Of a stretch of DNA of 64,000 bases, positions 17,485 through 22,075 are shown one piece after another (within the stretch, counting starts at the first letter, position 1; every line of letters begins with the position of its first letter). The stretch lies in contig NZ_JAPENY010000003.1 of assembly GCF_026341825.1 (NCBI RefSeq), positions 992,001 to 1,056,000 on the forward strand. Reading direction: 5' to 3'. Origin of the DNA: Streptomyces sp. NBC_00620 (lineage in GTDB: Bacteria; Actinomycetota; Actinomycetes; Streptomycetales; Streptomycetaceae). The notes beneath the pieces are model-generated. The model was given only the letters and a program-made list of their open reading frames with translations, ran no database searches and was not told the origin of the DNA. Position numbers and translations under genes: made by a program.

Positions 17485-18612
17485 TCATCTCTTCCGTACG
17501 ACGACGAAGTCGGCGAGCTCCACGAACTGGGCCCGTACCTGTTCCGGCATATGGATCGCGTCGAGGGCCTCGACGGCGATCGCGTGCTGGCGACGCGCCT
17601 CCTGGGCGGTCCAGTCGCGGCCGCCGGCCTCCTCGATGAGCGCGGCGCGCGCGGCGAACTCCTCCTCGGAGAAGTTCTCGAAGTCACTGGCCTTGGCGTC
17701 GGCGGCGAGCAGTTCGCCCAGGCGCTCGGATGCGGGCCCGCCCGCGGCGAGCGCGGCCACCACCGGCAGGGACTTCTTGCGCTGGCGCAGATCGCTCCAA
17801 GTCTGCTTTCCGGTGGCCTCCGGGTCGCCCCAGATGCCGAGGAGGTCGTCGACGGCCTGGAAGGCGAGGCCGAGGTGGTAGCCGTACTTCTCGAGGGTGT
17901 CGGCGGTGTGGTCGTCGGCGCCGCCGAGCACCGCGCCGATGGAGCAGGCGCAGGCGAGCAGCGCGCCCGTCTTGTTGCCCTCCATCTCCAAGCACTCCTC
18001 GACGGTGACCCGCTCGCGGTGCTCGTAGGAGATGTCCTGGGCCTGGCCGTCGATGAGGGCGCGGGTGGCGGTGGTCAGGCGCCGGGTGGCGCGGCCCGCC
18101 TCCACCGTGCCGAGCTCCAGCAGGAGTTCGTTGGCCAGCGCGAACAGGGCGTCGCCGACGAGGATCGCCTGGGCGGGGCCGTGCACCTTCCATACGGTGT
18201 CGCGGTGGCGGCGCTGCTCGTCACCGTCCATCAGGTCGTCGTGCAACAACGAGAAGTTGTGCACCAGTTCGACGGCGACCGCACCCGGCACGCCCACCTC
18301 GGGGGCGGCACCGGCGGCCTGCGCGGACAGCACGGCGAGCGCGGGGCGTACGGCCTTGCCGCCGTCACCGTCCGCGGGGTTCCCCTCGGCGTCGATCCAG
18401 CCGAAATGGTAGGCGGCGACAGTGTCCATGGGAGGCGCCAGGCGGTCGACGGCCGCCCGCAGCACCGGTGTGGCCAGGGTCCGGCCGCGCTCCAGGAGCG
18501 CGGTCACGTCCACCGCGTCGGCAGCCGTTTCGGCCGGGGGCACAGTGGGCACAGTCTCTCCTCTTTTTGCGGTACCGGGGGTGCGGGGGTCCGCCGCGCG
18601 CTGATCGAGCAT
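17485..18612 (-). CDS. Polyprenyl (farnesyl/geranylgeranyl-type) diphosphate synthase
   Basis: A 375-residue all-trans prenyl diphosphate synthase. The first Asp-rich motif is LLHDDLMDGDEQRR and the second is FQAVDDLLGIWGD. The GGKAVRPAL region binds IPP. In this operon it should supply farnesyl diphosphate for squalene synthesis by HpnC/D/E, although chain length cannot be read reliably by eye. ATG at 18612 shares a base with the hpnE stop (TGATG). The much longer open frame upstream lies inside hpnE and is not coding. The first 55 residues are low-complexity compared with the core. Confidence 0.92.
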   Translation of the reverse strand: MLDQRAADPRTPGTAKRGETVPTVPPAETAADAVDVTALLERGRTLATPVLRAAVDRLAPPMDTVAAYHFGWIDAEGNPADGDGGKAVRPALAVLSAQAAGAAPEVGVPGAVAVELVHNFSLLHDDLMDGDEQRRHRDTVWKVHGPAQAILVGDALFALANELLLELGTVEAGRATRRLTTATRALIDGQAQDISYEHRERVTVEECLEMEGNKTGALLACACSIGAVLGGADDHTADTLEKYGYHLGLAFQAVDDLLGIWGDPEATGKQTWSDLRQRKKSLPVVAALAAGGPASERLGELLAADAKASDFENFSEEEFAARAALIEEAGGRDWTAQEARRQHAIAVEALDAIHMPEQVRAQFVELADFVVVRKR

Positions 18613-20027
18613 CAGGCCGCCTCCTCGACTTCGAAGAGGTGATCGCGAGGCCGGCCCAGGGCGCCCAGCGCGGCTCCCGCCGCACTGACACCACTGCGGA
18701 CCGCACTCTCCATGGTCGCGGGCCACCCTGTGGCGGTCCACGCTCCGGCCAAGTACAGACCGGGAGCTTTGGTGCGAGCGCCGGGCCGCAGCCGCCCGAC
18801 GCCTGGGGTGGGGGCGAACGTCGCCGTACGCTCCCGGGTCACGAAGAAATCCTTCACTTCCGCGCCGCGCGCGCCGGGCAACAGCCGCTCCAGCTCCGGC
18901 AGATAGCGCTCGCGCAGTACGGACACGGGCTCGTCGATCTCGTCCTGCGCGGCCGACTGGGAGAGGGCCAGGTACTGCCCCTCCCGGAGCCCGGAGGCCT
19001 CGGTGCGGTCGAAGACCCACTGCACCGGGGAGCCGAGCGCCGCGAAGAACGGCCGGGTGAGCACCGTGCGGTCGTAGATGACATGGACGTTGAGGATCGG
19101 CGCCGTGCCGATCTCAAGGAGCCGTTCGGGGGCGTCGAGCGCGCCCTCGGGCAGCAGATCGTGGGCCTCGCGATGCGGTACGGCGAGGACGACCGTGTCG
19201 GCGTCGAGCGTCTCGCCGGGAACCTGAACGCTCCAGCGGCCGTTCTCGTTCTGGGAGATGGAGGTGACGCGTGTACGGACTTCGGTGCGGACGCCCGCGG
19301 TGTCGAGCGCCTTGCGAGCCAGAGTGTCGTGCAGTTCGCCCAGCGGGACGCGCGCCCAGCCGATGTCGGCCGCGCCCGGGTCGGACAGCAGACCGGTCTT
19401 GAACACCATCGCGGCGAGCCCGAGCGACGAGTCGCCGGCCACCGCGTTGAGGGTGGCGACCCCCACCAGGTCCCACAGTGCCTCGACGGCACGCTCGGAC
19501 TGACCGTGCGCGGTCAGCCAGCTGCCGAAGTTCTGCGCGTCGAGCGCCGGATCGGCGAGGTCGAGCCCCTTGAGCGCCAAGGCGGCACGCCCGACTTTGG
19601 CGCGCTCGGCGAGCGAGAGATGGGGATAGGTCGCGAGGCTTTTCGCCAGATGCAGCGGCACGGGCAGCGCGGTGCGGCCGATTCTGCCGAGCCGCCGCCC
19701 AGGTTTCGCCTCGGCGTCGAGAACGGGCACGTCGAGACGATCCTGCAGTGGCGCGAGCGAGGCTCCGTCGACGCGGTCGAGGAACCACCGGTAGGCGGTG
19801 CAGCAGCGCAGATACACGTGCTGTCCGTTGTCCACGGTGAGATCGCCGCGCTGGAAGGAGAAGGCGAGCCCGCCGAGCCTCGGCCGGCCTTCGAGGAGCG
19901 TCACACGCACCCCGGCGTCGGCGAGCGCCAGCGCGGCGGTGATGCCGGCGAGCCCTCCGCCGACCACCACGGCGGTTGCCGTGTCCGGGCGGGCCGTGGT
20001 GTCCACGGGCCGCGTGACCTCGCTCAT
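18612..20027 (-). CDS. hpnE: Hydroxysqualene dehydroxylase HpnE (FAD-dependent)
   Basis: A 471-residue flavoprotein of the amine-oxidase/phytoene-desaturase type that reduces hydroxysqualene to squalene. The FAD dinucleotide fold is AVVVGGGLAGITAALALADAGVRVTLLEGRPRLGG near residues 19-52. The C-terminal FAD segment is GLYLAGAWTATGWPATMESAVRSG. It starts at ATG 20027 with GGAGGGTGC upstream. The start is overlapped by the stop of the DUF6380 gene (ATGA). The longer open frame to 20126 covers that small gene and is rejected. Membrane association is likely by analogy with the family. Confidence 0.93.
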   Translation of the reverse strand: MSEVTRPVDTTARPDTATAVVVGGGLAGITAALALADAGVRVTLLEGRPRLGGLAFSFQRGDLTVDNGQHVYLRCCTAYRWFLDRVDGASLAPLQDRLDVPVLDAEAKPGRRLGRIGRTALPVPLHLAKSLATYPHLSLAERAKVGRAALALKGLDLADPALDAQNFGSWLTAHGQSERAVEALWDLVGVATLNAVAGDSSLGLAAMVFKTGLLSDPGAADIGWARVPLGELHDTLARKALDTAGVRTEVRTRVTSISQNENGRWSVQVPGETLDADTVVLAVPHREAHDLLPEGALDAPERLLEIGTAPILNVHVIYDRTVLTRPFFAALGSPVQWVFDRTEASGLREGQYLALSQSAAQDEIDEPVSVLRERYLPELERLLPGARGAEVKDFFVTRERTATFAPTPGVGRLRPGARTKAPGLYLAGAWTATGWPATMESAVRSGVSAAGAALGALGRPRDHLFEVEEAA

Positions 20028-20164
20028 CGTGCACCCTCCCCCTCGGCCGTGCCGCGGTGTTCGAGCGGTGTGCGGCAGGCCATTGCAGTCAGGGACGCCC
20101 CGCGGCTCCGGAGGGTTGCGTGCCACTTTTCGCCGTTGGAATCACCTTGGCCCAAATTGTCCAT
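20024..20164 (-). CDS. DUF6380 family small protein within the hopanoid operon
   Basis: A 46-residue ORF filling exactly the gap between hpnD and hpnE. Its ATG overlaps the hpnD stop (TGATG), with CAGGAGG just upstream, and its TGA overlaps the hpnE ATG (ATGA). The sequence begins MDNLGQGDSNGEKWHATLR, continues SRGASLTAMACR and ends EGEGAR. That pattern matches what I remember as the Streptomyces DUF6380 family (MDNPVQGD, GEKRxATLR, AASLT, GEGAR). It is polar, with no membrane helix. Function is unknown. The double overlap says it is translated with the squalene enzymes. Confidence 0.72.
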   Translation of the reverse strand: MDNLGQGDSNGEKWHATLRSRGASLTAMACRTPLEHRGTAEGEGAR

Positions 20165-21114
20165 CAGGTACGCCTCCTGACGGTCCGGCGGGACACATGC
20201 CGGGCGTCCAGGCCGGAGAGGCCGCGCACGGCGACGTACGCCTTCTCACGTCCGGGCAGCGAGACACGGCCGCGCAGCACGGCCTCCGGCTCGCGCTCGA
20301 TGCGGTCGAGGAGGCGGCGGTAGATGCCGGCCATCGCCGCGACGCACGCGCCGCTGCGCCGGTCCAGCATCGGCAGCAGCCGGTAGCCCTCGGCGAAGAG
20401 AGCGCGGGCCCGGCGCACTTCGAAGTGCACGAGGCCCGCGAAGTCGGAGCCGGGCGGTGGTGTCGGCCCGTTGAACCCGGCCGAGCAGCCGAACTTGGCG
20501 AGGTCGTCGGCGGGCAGATAGGTACGTCCGCCCTCGGCGTCCTCACGTACGTCCCGCAGGATGTTGGTGAGTTGGAGCGCGAGCCCGAGTGTGTCGGCAT
20601 ACTCCGGCGCACGCTCAGCTCCGCGCGCCCCCGGCTCCGTACCGAACACGCCGAGCGAGAGCCGCCCGATCGCCCCGGCCACACACCGGCAGTACACCTT
20701 CAGGTCGTCCCAGGTCTCGTACGTCTCTCCGCGTACGTCCATGAGGACGCCGTCGATGAGTTCGTCGAGGCCTTCGAGGGGTACCGGAAAATACTCGGCG
20801 GTGTGGCTGAGGGCGACCGCGACCGGGTCGGTGTCGTCCTCCTCCACGGAACCCTCGCGGACCCGGGCAAGCAGTGCCCGGGTGTCCTCGAGACGGGACG
20901 CCTTCACGTCCGTTGCGAGCGTGCCGTCGCCGATGTCGTCGACACGACGCGAGAACGCGTACAGCGCCGACATCGCGCGGCGCTTGGACGTCGGCAGAAG
21001 TCTGATGCCGTACGCGAAATTACGGGCCTGCTGACTGGTTACTGCTTCGCAGTAGCTGTAAGCGGCGAGTACCGGTGCGGGCACGTGTTGTTCAGACTCC
21101 ACGGTCCGGATCAC
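20164..21114 (-). CDS. hpnD: Presqualene diphosphate synthase HpnD
   Basis: A 316-residue trans-isoprenyl diphosphate synthase of the squalene/phytoene synthase family. It joins two farnesyl diphosphates to presqualene diphosphate. The first Asp motif is SRRVDDIGD near residue 56. The second is LTNILRDVREDAEGGRTYLP. VDDIGDG and the YCRCVAGAIG helix are family hallmarks. The GTG start overlaps the hpnC stop (GTGA) with GAGGA five bases before, so it is coupled to hpnC. The adjacent paralogue HpnC and HpnE complete the three-enzyme route to squalene. Confidence 0.92.
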   Translation of the reverse strand: MIRTVESEQHVPAPVLAAYSYCEAVTSQQARNFAYGIRLLPTSKRRAMSALYAFSRRVDDIGDGTLATDVKASRLEDTRALLARVREGSVEEDDTDPVAVALSHTAEYFPVPLEGLDELIDGVLMDVRGETYETWDDLKVYCRCVAGAIGRLSLGVFGTEPGARGAERAPEYADTLGLALQLTNILRDVREDAEGGRTYLPADDLAKFGCSAGFNGPTPPPGSDFAGLVHFEVRRARALFAEGYRLLPMLDRRSGACVAAMAGIYRRLLDRIEREPEAVLRGRVSLPGREKAYVAVRGLSGLDARHVSRRTVRRRT

Positions 21115-22013
21115 CCCTTTCCTCGCAGAGTCACTCCCACCTCGCGCAGCAGCTGGAGCTTGCCGTGCTTGGGCGGGCCTGGAAGTACGTCGTATTCGGC
21201 GGCGGCAATCGCACGGATTGCCGCCCTTCCCCCCGCAACGAACCCCGCGAGCAGCAGCTTCAGTCTGCCGTGGACGCTACCCACGAGGGGGGTGCCTTCA
21301 TTCAGGAGGTTCCGGGCGCGTTCTGCTTCGTATGCAACCAGTGCGCGCACCGATGCGCCTGCCGTGGCCGGGGCCAGATCCGCCTCTTGGACATGAAAGC
21401 GCTTCATGTCCTCGGCGGGCAGATAGATACGGTCGCGGCCGAGATCCTCGGCCACGTCCTGGAGGTGTTCGACGATCTGCAGTGCCGTGCACACCGCGTC
21501 GGAGCGACGGACGCGCTCCGGGGTCTCGGTGCCCGTGACGGCCAGCACGAGGCGGCCGACGGGGTTGGCGGACAGCTCGCAGTAGGCGACCAGGTCGTCG
21601 TAGGTCTCGTACCGCTTGACCAGCTGGTCCTGGCGGTTGGCCGCGATCAGGCCGAGAAAGGGCTCGGGGGTGAGGCGGGCGCGGCGGACCGTGGGCTGGA
21701 GGCGGCGCAGCAACGGGTGGCGCGGGGTCGAGCCGAACACCCGGTGGAGGTCGGTCTCGAAGGCGTCGAGGAGGACGACGCGGTCCTCGGCCTCCGTGGG
21801 CGACACGCCGAGGAGGCGGGCGTCCGCGCCCCCGGGGGCCAGGTCGCCGTCACCGATGTCGTCGACGAGGCGGGCGAAGCCGTACACGGCCATCAGATCG
21901 TCACGCCAGGCCTTGGGCAGAAAGAAGGGCGCCACCGGGAAGTTCTCGTCCGCGGCCTTGTCGAGGGTGCCGCGCTCCGGGTCTCCGGTACGCGCCGTCC
22001 CGGCTTCGGTCAC
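21111..22013 (-). CDS. hpnC: Hydroxysqualene synthase HpnC
   Basis: A 300-residue squalene/phytoene synthase homologue that converts presqualene diphosphate to hydroxysqualene. Visible motifs are ARLVDDIGDGDL, YETYDDLVAYCELSANPVGRLVL, and VEHLQDVAEDLGRDRIYLPAEDM. It starts at GTG 22013, whose first bases overlap the stop of a 21-codon upstream ORF (GTGA). The longer GTG frame to 22043 would run through that ORF. It ends overlapping hpnD. It is the first large gene of the operon, and a palindrome and a possible -10 lie about 160-210 bases upstream. Confidence 0.91.
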   Translation of the reverse strand: MTEAGTARTGDPERGTLDKAADENFPVAPFFLPKAWRDDLMAVYGFARLVDDIGDGDLAPGGADARLLGVSPTEAEDRVVLLDAFETDLHRVFGSTPRHPLLRRLQPTVRRARLTPEPFLGLIAANRQDQLVKRYETYDDLVAYCELSANPVGRLVLAVTGTETPERVRRSDAVCTALQIVEHLQDVAEDLGRDRIYLPAEDMKRFHVQEADLAPATAGASVRALVAYEAERARNLLNEGTPLVGSVHGRLKLLLAGFVAGGRAAIRAIAAAEYDVLPGPPKHGKLQLLREVGVTLRGKG

Positions 22014-22075
22014 CGCTCGCCGCCCGGCGCGGGGACGGCACACGCATCGCGGAGCTGGAGAGTTTCCGTAGCCAT
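22010..22075 (-). CDS. 21-codon leader ORF coupled to hpnC
   Basis: ATG 22075 follows GGGAGA at about 10 bases. The frame encodes MATETLQLRDACAVPAPGG plus two residues and ends with TGA overlapping the hpnC GTG (GTGA). It is too short to assign a function. It could be a translational coupling leader or a true microprotein. Coding potential is suggested by the fit with the overlap pattern of every later gene in the operon, but conservation has not been tested. Confidence 0.5.
   Translation of the reverse strand: MATETLQLRDACAVPAPGGER

Follow-up and report, generated by a model that had tools for sequence, protein, structure and literature searches.

In the genome of Streptomyces sp. NBC_00620, an open reading frame (ORF) of 46 codons is fitted between the hopanoid genes hpnD and hpnE and overlaps both of them. 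This raises the question whether such an ORF is kept for the peptide it encodes, for a signal contained in its nucleotides, or for the mere fact that it can be translated. The locus was examined in a stretch of 64,000 nucleotides (positions 992,001 to 1,056,000 of contig NZ_JAPENY010000003.1), referred to as the window in the following, and in the corresponding junctions of other genomes.

The open reading frame between hpnD and hpnE and its distribution

The ATG of the ORF (20164-20162) shares bases with the TGA of hpnD (20166-20164) in the form TGATG, and its own TGA (20026-20024) shares bases with the ATG of hpnE (20027-20025) in the form ATGA (Table 1). The position, both overlaps and the ribosome site had already been given in a preliminary description of the locus and were all borne out, the ORF being located on the minus strand. 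HpnC, HpnD, and HpnE were identified by NCBIfam equivalog matches. The genes following hpnE are, judging from the list of ORFs, presumably those of a prenyl synthase and a squalene-hopene cyclase.

Table 1. Features of the hpnC-hpnD-hpnE region discussed in the text (window positions).
Feature	Position	Strand	Evidence
hpnC, squalene synthase, upstream in operon	21111..22043	-	TIGR03464, 329.7 bits (cut-off 250.45)
hpnD, presqualene diphosphate synthase	20164..21114	-	TIGR03465, 313 bits (cut-off 278.6)
Shine-Dalgarno AGGAGG of the bridging ORF, within the end of hpnD, 8 nt before the ATG	20173..20178	-	
Bridging ORF, 46 codons, PF19907 (DUF6380)	20024..20164	-	ORF reading, profile match
CCAAGGTGA box, 31 nt upstream of the start of the -35 box	20142..20150	-	
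-35 box GCAACC of the predicted ECF-type promoter for hpnE	20114..20119	-	
-10 box CGTC, 16 nt past the -35 box	20094..20097	-	
Conserved CCTGACTG directly after the -10 box; predicted transcription start about here	20086..20093	-	
Shine-Dalgarno of hpnE, within the last ORF codons ("GEGAR" end)	20035..20039	-	
hpnE, hydroxysqualene dehydroxylase; first gene of the predicted internal transcript	18612..20027	-	TIGR03467, 478.6 bits (cut-off 283.05)
Predicted antisense-RNA promoter inside hpnE, GGGAACCTGAACGCTCCAGCGGC-CGTTCT, same architecture, facing the sense promoter	19218..19247	+	

The ORF had also been described as below usual gene-calling cut-offs, which appears doubtful. Its translation is a full-length match to the Pfam family PF19907 (DUF6380; 75.4 bits, E 3.2e-21, positions 1-46 of 46) and lies well above the curated threshold (27 bits). 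In addition, sco6761 and scab_12921 stand as numbers apart from the hopanoid genes in the accessible part of PMC4551226, which suggests that the ORF is annotated in some genomes. No paper naming DUF6380 was found in the open-licence literature. A dispersed repeat or multi-copy element was considered and rejected, as the ORF is present as a single copy in its own genome and the reversed control of the 17-letter DNA pattern yielded 0 matches in 297 genomes.

Among 295 genomes of the same genus, HpnE was found in 289 and DUF6380 above the cut-off in 129. At all 119 DUF6380 loci examined, the ORF is flanked by hpnD and hpnE on the same strand; given these matches and flanks, the ORF is not a chance frame. 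The preliminary description had named DUF6380 genes without any link to hopanoid genes as an outcome that would speak against it; the link turned out to be tight. Of 150 genomes drawn from the family, 17 had the domain above the cut-off, all belonging to the genus of the window, and at E 1e-4 it was found in one of 17 genera.

The main set consists of 131 hpnD-hpnE junctions, namely the one of the window (L001), 118 with DUF6380 above the cut-off and 12 from genomes without it; hpnD and hpnE are co-stranded in 131/131, with the restriction that these junctions share descent, that 119 of them were picked for the domain and that counts drawn from them are not independent events. A less domain-biased draw over the order contained 44 same-genus genomes with HpnE, 40 of which were analyzed. 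Seven of these 40, including the window's own genome, are also among the 131, and the remaining four of the 44 (G013, G056, G107, and G133) carry both the element and the bridge described below. In addition, a pattern scan of named genomes gave at least 118 stretches, and among the matches listed 80 were given as loci. Of these 80 listed loci, 76 contain hpnD and hpnE around the element, two end before hpnE, and two (Ruegeria and Butyrivibrio) are without hpnD and hpnE. The element pattern was found without hpnD or hpnE at L201 and L225.

Constraint on nucleotides, peptide, and frame

The peptide core ATLR....ASLT corresponds to a nearly invariant DNA element, GCAACC-N16-CGTCCCTGACTG. Allowing at most 4 mismatches in 18 letters, this element is present in 130 of the 131 junctions (86 of them exact), and the spacing between its two boxes is 16 in all 130. 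The sole exception is L134, where hpnE lies directly on hpnD. Of the 12 junctions whose genomes lack a Pfam match above the cut-off, 11 carry the element as well, and the same rule detected it in 15 of 16 further junctions with no or only a weak Pfam match. In the 112 distinct cores derived from the 115 junctions that fit the residue pattern (16 of the 131 do not fit and were omitted), the codons GCA, ACC, and GCG are each used in 112/112 cases, TCC in 108/112, and CTG and ACT in 100/112 each. In the neighboring gene parts, GCA accounts for 3.7% of the alanine codons and ACT for 1.3% of the threonine codons. Divergence was counted in 33 disjoint pairs of related genomes, taken from 117 sequences and having equal segment lengths, an hpnE identity of 0.84-0.98 and an hpnD window identity of at least 0.78. 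Within the boxes, 10/594 sites differ, compared to 89/297 in the stretch that separates them. A search for a regulon sharing the complete 18-letter element revealed none, the element being essentially confined to hpnE. The scan of 297 genomes yielded a second copy of the element in G067 and one copy in G408, which belongs to another genus.

For the peptide, the same 33 pairs gave a dN/dS (Nei-Gojobori) of 0.93 in the ORF outside the core (bootstrap 0.79-1.09) and of 0.83 (0.67-1.03) within the core, where synonymous and other sites are slowed alike; hpnD and hpnE reached 0.05 and 0.13, respectively. Binned by identity, the two outer parts of the ORF ranged from 0.66 to 1.67. AlphaFold2, supplied with 26 aligned peptides, predicted no secondary structure (mean pLDDT 58.6, pTM 0.13), although partner-dependent folding is possible for peptides this short, and the length of the ORF varies from 34 to 199 amino acids among the 121 junctions where the first start call agreed. 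A lack of protein-level conservation had been named beforehand as the outcome that would speak against a gene product, and a dN/dS of about 1 outside the core is precisely such an outcome. Judged from these comparisons, the ORF is probably not a tiny gene kept for its protein.

The reading frame itself behaves differently from the peptide. In 129 distinct spacers, stop codons occur at 8 of 6,932 codons in the frame of the ORF, compared to 132 of 6,803 and 107 of 6,804 in the other two frames; the ORF frame is uninterrupted in 121 spacers, the other two in only 10 and 47. The end of the spacer was set to the hpnE start picked by its ribosome site, and all 8 stops in the ORF frame belong to junctions where a later hpnE start was picked. 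Between the hpnD stop and the element, 19 different distances of 26 to 500 nt were observed, 18 of which share one phase (the exception, 60, is that of L104); the 16 different distances between the element and hpnE all share a single phase. A bridge, i.e., a frame running from the hpnD stop to one base into the hpnE start, with all starts in the hpnE frame taken into account, exists in 130/130 element-bearing junctions, L134 having none. The ORF stop is embedded in ATGA in 125 of these 130 and in GTGA in five, and the AGGAGG preceding the ORF is matched in 6/6 letters in 110 and in 5/6 letters in 17 of 129 distinct junctions. Bridges were also found in 75/76 named junctions, with L179 breaking it, and in 36/40 genomes of the less biased draw. 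With the frame and both docks kept to this extent, the second suggestion of the preliminary description, that the ORF might merely couple translation, gains support. At one further junction, L274, which was counted as unbridged, the frame by eye runs from the hpnD stop into the first hpnE codons. In S. griseus NRRL WC-3645 (L204) and S. viridochromogenes DSM 40736 (L197), the bridging ORF exceeds 150 codons and is in frame from hpnD to hpnE; the expanded ORF of L204 contains an internal repeat.

A predicted promoter and the competing explanations

In its sequence, the conserved core resembles a promoter of the stress type that would serve the following gene. In the portion of Tran et al. (2019; PMC6767563) that was available, AAC and TC are the key letters of sigma-E promoters, and a scoring matrix was derived from the 19 sigma-E promoters that are mapped, or taken from earlier mapping, in that paper. 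By this matrix, the element ranks 3rd of 127,938 positions in the window, is the best-scoring site in 127 of 130 loci and scores in 129 of 130 cases at least as high as the weakest of the 19 published promoters; since published promoters score 2.1-20.0 when left out, the matrix is a soft one. Read in the antisense direction, the element has a median score of -7.0 and at most 4.6. As expected for a promoter of the sigma-E type, the three letters of the -35 AAC are present in 126 (A), 127 (A), and 127 (C) of the 127 distinct elements, and C, G, T, and C of the -10 box in 127/127 each. The 16-nt spacing between GCAACC and CGTC recurs in 17 of the 19 published promoters.

The -35 AAC, the -10 CGTC and the spacing are thus shared with the sigma-E promoters of hrdD, cwg, and mreB in the available part of PMC6767563. 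The hrdD promoter is given there as GGCAACCCTCAGGCGGTACGGGC-CGTCTT and begins with GGCAACCCTC, the hpnE element reading GCAACCCTC at the same place. In contrast to the published promoters seen, the hpnE element is located inside an operon and inside an ORF, and its conserved letters run on past the -10 box, CCTGACTG being outside the sigma-E consensus. In the diverged genomes L326, L327, L329, and L333, CCTGACTG is lost and the boxes are kept; L326 reads GGCAACC..GCGTCTTC and scores 20.5. The upstream box CCAAGGTGA occurs within 2 mismatches in 68 of 130 junctions, in 65 of these 68 at a distance of 31, and uses rare codons such as CAA. In some of the genomes, it may serve as an activator site.

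SCO6761 and SCO6762 are absent from the sigma-E list in Table 1 of PMC6767563, which was obtained from vancomycin-treated cells and is cited here from the available part of the paper, and sigma-E itself may therefore be the wrong factor. In the same portion, Tran et al. make the case that promoters of this kind serve several ECF factors. Owing to this shared use and to the missing SCO6762, the claim made here is limited to an ECF-type promoter.

Against the promoter reading, the hopanoid genes of S. venezuelae go down upon ethanol shock (PMC9769785), and an enrichment of hopanoid genes was obtained for moenomycin-induced genes only (4/13, P 0.0165) and not for those induced by vancomycin or bacitracin. 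Also against it, the part of the S. griseus paper at hand locates a break within the operon at a more downstream place, ahead of the cyclase, and mentions none at hpnE. The S. coelicolor arrays in the accessible part of PMC3610822 give log2 values of 0.5, 0.4, and 0.4 for SCO6760, 0.9, 1.1, and 1.1 for SCO6762, 1, 1, and 0.9 for SCO6763 and 1.4, 0.7, and 0.5 for SCO6764; the step after SCO6760 is weakly consistent with an internal promoter. No report of an hpnE promoter or of the bridge was found in the open-licence literature.

In the 40 genomes of the less biased draw, a sense site scoring at least 10 was found in 35, compared to 0/40 on the other strand and 4/40 in hpnD control stretches; one of the 35 sites (L335) falls in hpnD, there being no spacer at this locus. 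In the four unbridged genomes (L330, L335, L336, and L337), an hpnE start precedes the end of the hpnD stop by 4 nt and the element is missing. A sample of 16 other genera of the family suggests that the link between promoter and bridge is real but looser there. Eight of these junctions (L286, L287, L288, L290, L292, L293, L298, and L299) combine a spacer site of at least 9.0 with a bridge; the two weakest sites, at L298 and L299 (9.0 and 9.8), do not exceed the highest score of the hpnD controls (9.9). At L284, L289, and L294, the hpnE start lies on the hpnD stop and neither promoter site nor bridge is present. L297 passes a lax bridge rule, but its hpnE start also lies on the hpnD stop and it probably belongs with these three. 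A bridge without promoter-like site was seen at L291 (33 codons, TTG start) and L295 (9 codons), and an unbridged spacer without such a site at L285 and L296, with a frame opening within the spacer of L285 that does end on the hpnE start. In 8 genomes from other families the element was found in none, and in 7/7 of those where hpnD was found an hpnE start again precedes the end of the hpnD stop by 4 nt. This distribution suggests that direct coupling of hpnD and hpnE came first and that the bridge may maintain it where a promoter-bearing spacer intervenes.

Three other explanations have to be weighed against these data. A functional microprotein aiding the assembly or action of HpnC, HpnD, and HpnE, as had been proposed for the ORF, would agree with its being kept between hpnD and hpnE, with its own ribosome site and with the fact that M1, ATL, and ASLT are invariant in the 26 aligned peptides. 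These invariant residues are, however, encoded by invariant and partly very rare codons, conserved up to the third position, and together with the near-neutral dN/dS in both parts of the ORF, the variable length and the missing fold this leaves the proposal very improbable. Moreover, bridging ORFs are also found in the sister genera, which gave no Pfam match in the 150-genome draw. Conservation at the nucleotide level would equally be expected of a structured cis-acting RNA, such as a riboswitch or an attenuator, that lies in the hpnD-hpnE spacer and is read as protein by Pfam. For such an RNA one might adduce that GTCAGG of the ribosome site can pair with CCTGAC of the core, both being intact in 79/130 junctions, and that a hairpin is predicted over the ORF start. 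Yet this pairing is no better than expected from independence and shows no compensation, the covariation term of RNAalifold amounts to 0.02 of -23.2 kcal/mol, two-sided changes affect 2 of 24 predicted pairs, and the spacing of the boxes is invariable. Up to E 1, Rfam searches gave no match, the two obtained at E 8.9 and 9.2 being unrelated, and we regard an RNA of this kind as improbable. The predicted hairpin may still tie entry into the ORF to ribosomes finishing hpnD. A likeness of GCAACC to the loops of SAM riboswitches was dropped after the Rfam searches; a "hopC RNA motif" does exist, belonging to the hopC of Helicobacter and unrelated to this locus.

The remaining alternative accepts the boxes as a regulatory site of another kind, i.e., a promoter for a different ECF sigma factor with a similar consensus, the site of an activator, or a promoter facing the opposite way. 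The gap for SCO6762 in the available sigma-E table, the sharing of such promoters by several ECF factors according to the portion of Tran et al. at hand, and the additional conservation of CCTGACTG and CCAAGGTGA are in favor of it. The sense scores, on the other hand, fit sigma-E promoters, and those of the antisense reading are poor throughout; we consider this alternative unlikely, if less far-fetched than a protein or a structured RNA.

The explanation we prefer, at a probability of roughly 0.75, is an internal ECF-type promoter for hpnE and the genes downstream that is located within a sequence-neutral ORF preserving translational coupling. Comparison across genomes shows constraint on the nucleotides, constant spacing and a match to published promoters, as well as neutral amino acids, a kept frame, and the absence of both element and bridge where hpnE sits on the hpnD stop; a start of RNA polymerase at this place, the sigma factor it uses and translation of the ORF are what we infer. 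With -35 GCAACC, 16 nt and -10 CGTC in the spacer between hpnD and hpnE, RNA polymerase would begin an additional transcript some 60 nt ahead of hpnE, by which hpnE, the prenyl synthase and the squalene-hopene cyclase could be raised without a concomitant rise of hpnC and hpnD. When translating the long transcript, ribosomes would enter the open frame at the hpnD stop (TGATG, with a strong Shine-Dalgarno), cross the promoter island and leave on the hpnE start (ATGA), so that hpnE would stay translationally coupled. The amino acids of the ORF would be unselected. PF19907 is not conserved as a protein at this locus, its invariant positions being the promoter boxes and the ribosome sites, and the DUF6380 profile would largely represent a promoter and two ribosome sites read as protein. 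An internal promoter combined with a tiny ORF acting in cis on the translation of the next gene recalls the axe-txe minigene with the internal promoter paxe (PMC8708949; PMC3760812, accessible parts). There, the minigene has two codons and lies in the leader made by the internal promoter, whereas the hpnD-hpnE ORF, with 34-199 codons, spans the promoter and joins two genes end to end.

Under the preferred explanation, a domain of unknown function would turn into a testable regulatory statement, namely that hpnE and the cyclase genes have a stress-type promoter of their own, and such a promoter would uncouple squalene supply from hopanoid output. The locus would also provide a clear example from nature of an ORF maintained because of its frame rather than its peptide, which might be useful wherever small proteins are called from conservation alone.

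An antisense site and further constraint within hpnE

A strong antisense RNA has been reported opposite hopC/sco6762 in S. coelicolor and S. avermitilis (PMC3765725), an antisense RNA opposite hopC/SCO6762 is listed as sRNA209 (PMC4895711), and antisense transcription of the hopene cluster falls with salt (PMC13011467), each according to the available part of the source. On the strand opposite to hpnE, a candidate promoter of the same architecture was identified (Table 1). Among 95 hpnE orthologs, this site scores at least 10 in 69 and is the best on its strand in 80. The site is marked by rare codons at synonymous positions of hpnE: where valine 268 is kept, it is encoded by GTT in 80/85 cases, at a GTT usage of 6%. 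It is likely, judged from the conserved site, that 19218-19247 is the promoter of the published antisense RNA opposite hopC/SCO6762. This RNA and the site have the locus in common (PMC3765725; PMC4895711, parts at hand), and its promoter would now be placed, the accessible portions of the three papers giving none (PMC3765725; PMC4895711; PMC13011467). According to the same portions, the published transcript runs against hpnE, whereas the element within the bridging ORF faces the opposite way, towards the antisense site. An antisense promoter or RNA as the cause of the conservation of the ORF was considered and rejected, as the antisense reading over the element scores badly and the reported RNA lies opposite hpnE, where it has a separate candidate promoter.

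Taken further, the ORF might be a "gene without a sequence", selected only as an open, in-phase and docked bridge over an ECF promoter in Streptomyces and several sister genera, which together with the facing antisense promoter would form a head-on switch. This extended proposal is tentative, and we hold it to be somewhat less probable than even. If true, a switch between sense and antisense transcription would be located at the step committing squalene to hopanoids, and some other conserved tiny "DUF" families may likewise be promoters read as protein.

Two further regions of constraint were observed within hpnE. Just downstream of the antisense site, 19248-19319 (hpnE codons 236-260) is under strong synonymous-site constraint, with R250 as CGT and T251 as ACA; this stretch could have a function within the antisense RNA. 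The highest synonymous-site constraint of hpnE is found near its 3′ end, at 18693-18743 (codons 428-444, around GWPATMESAVR), and may be due to a site preceding the next gene.
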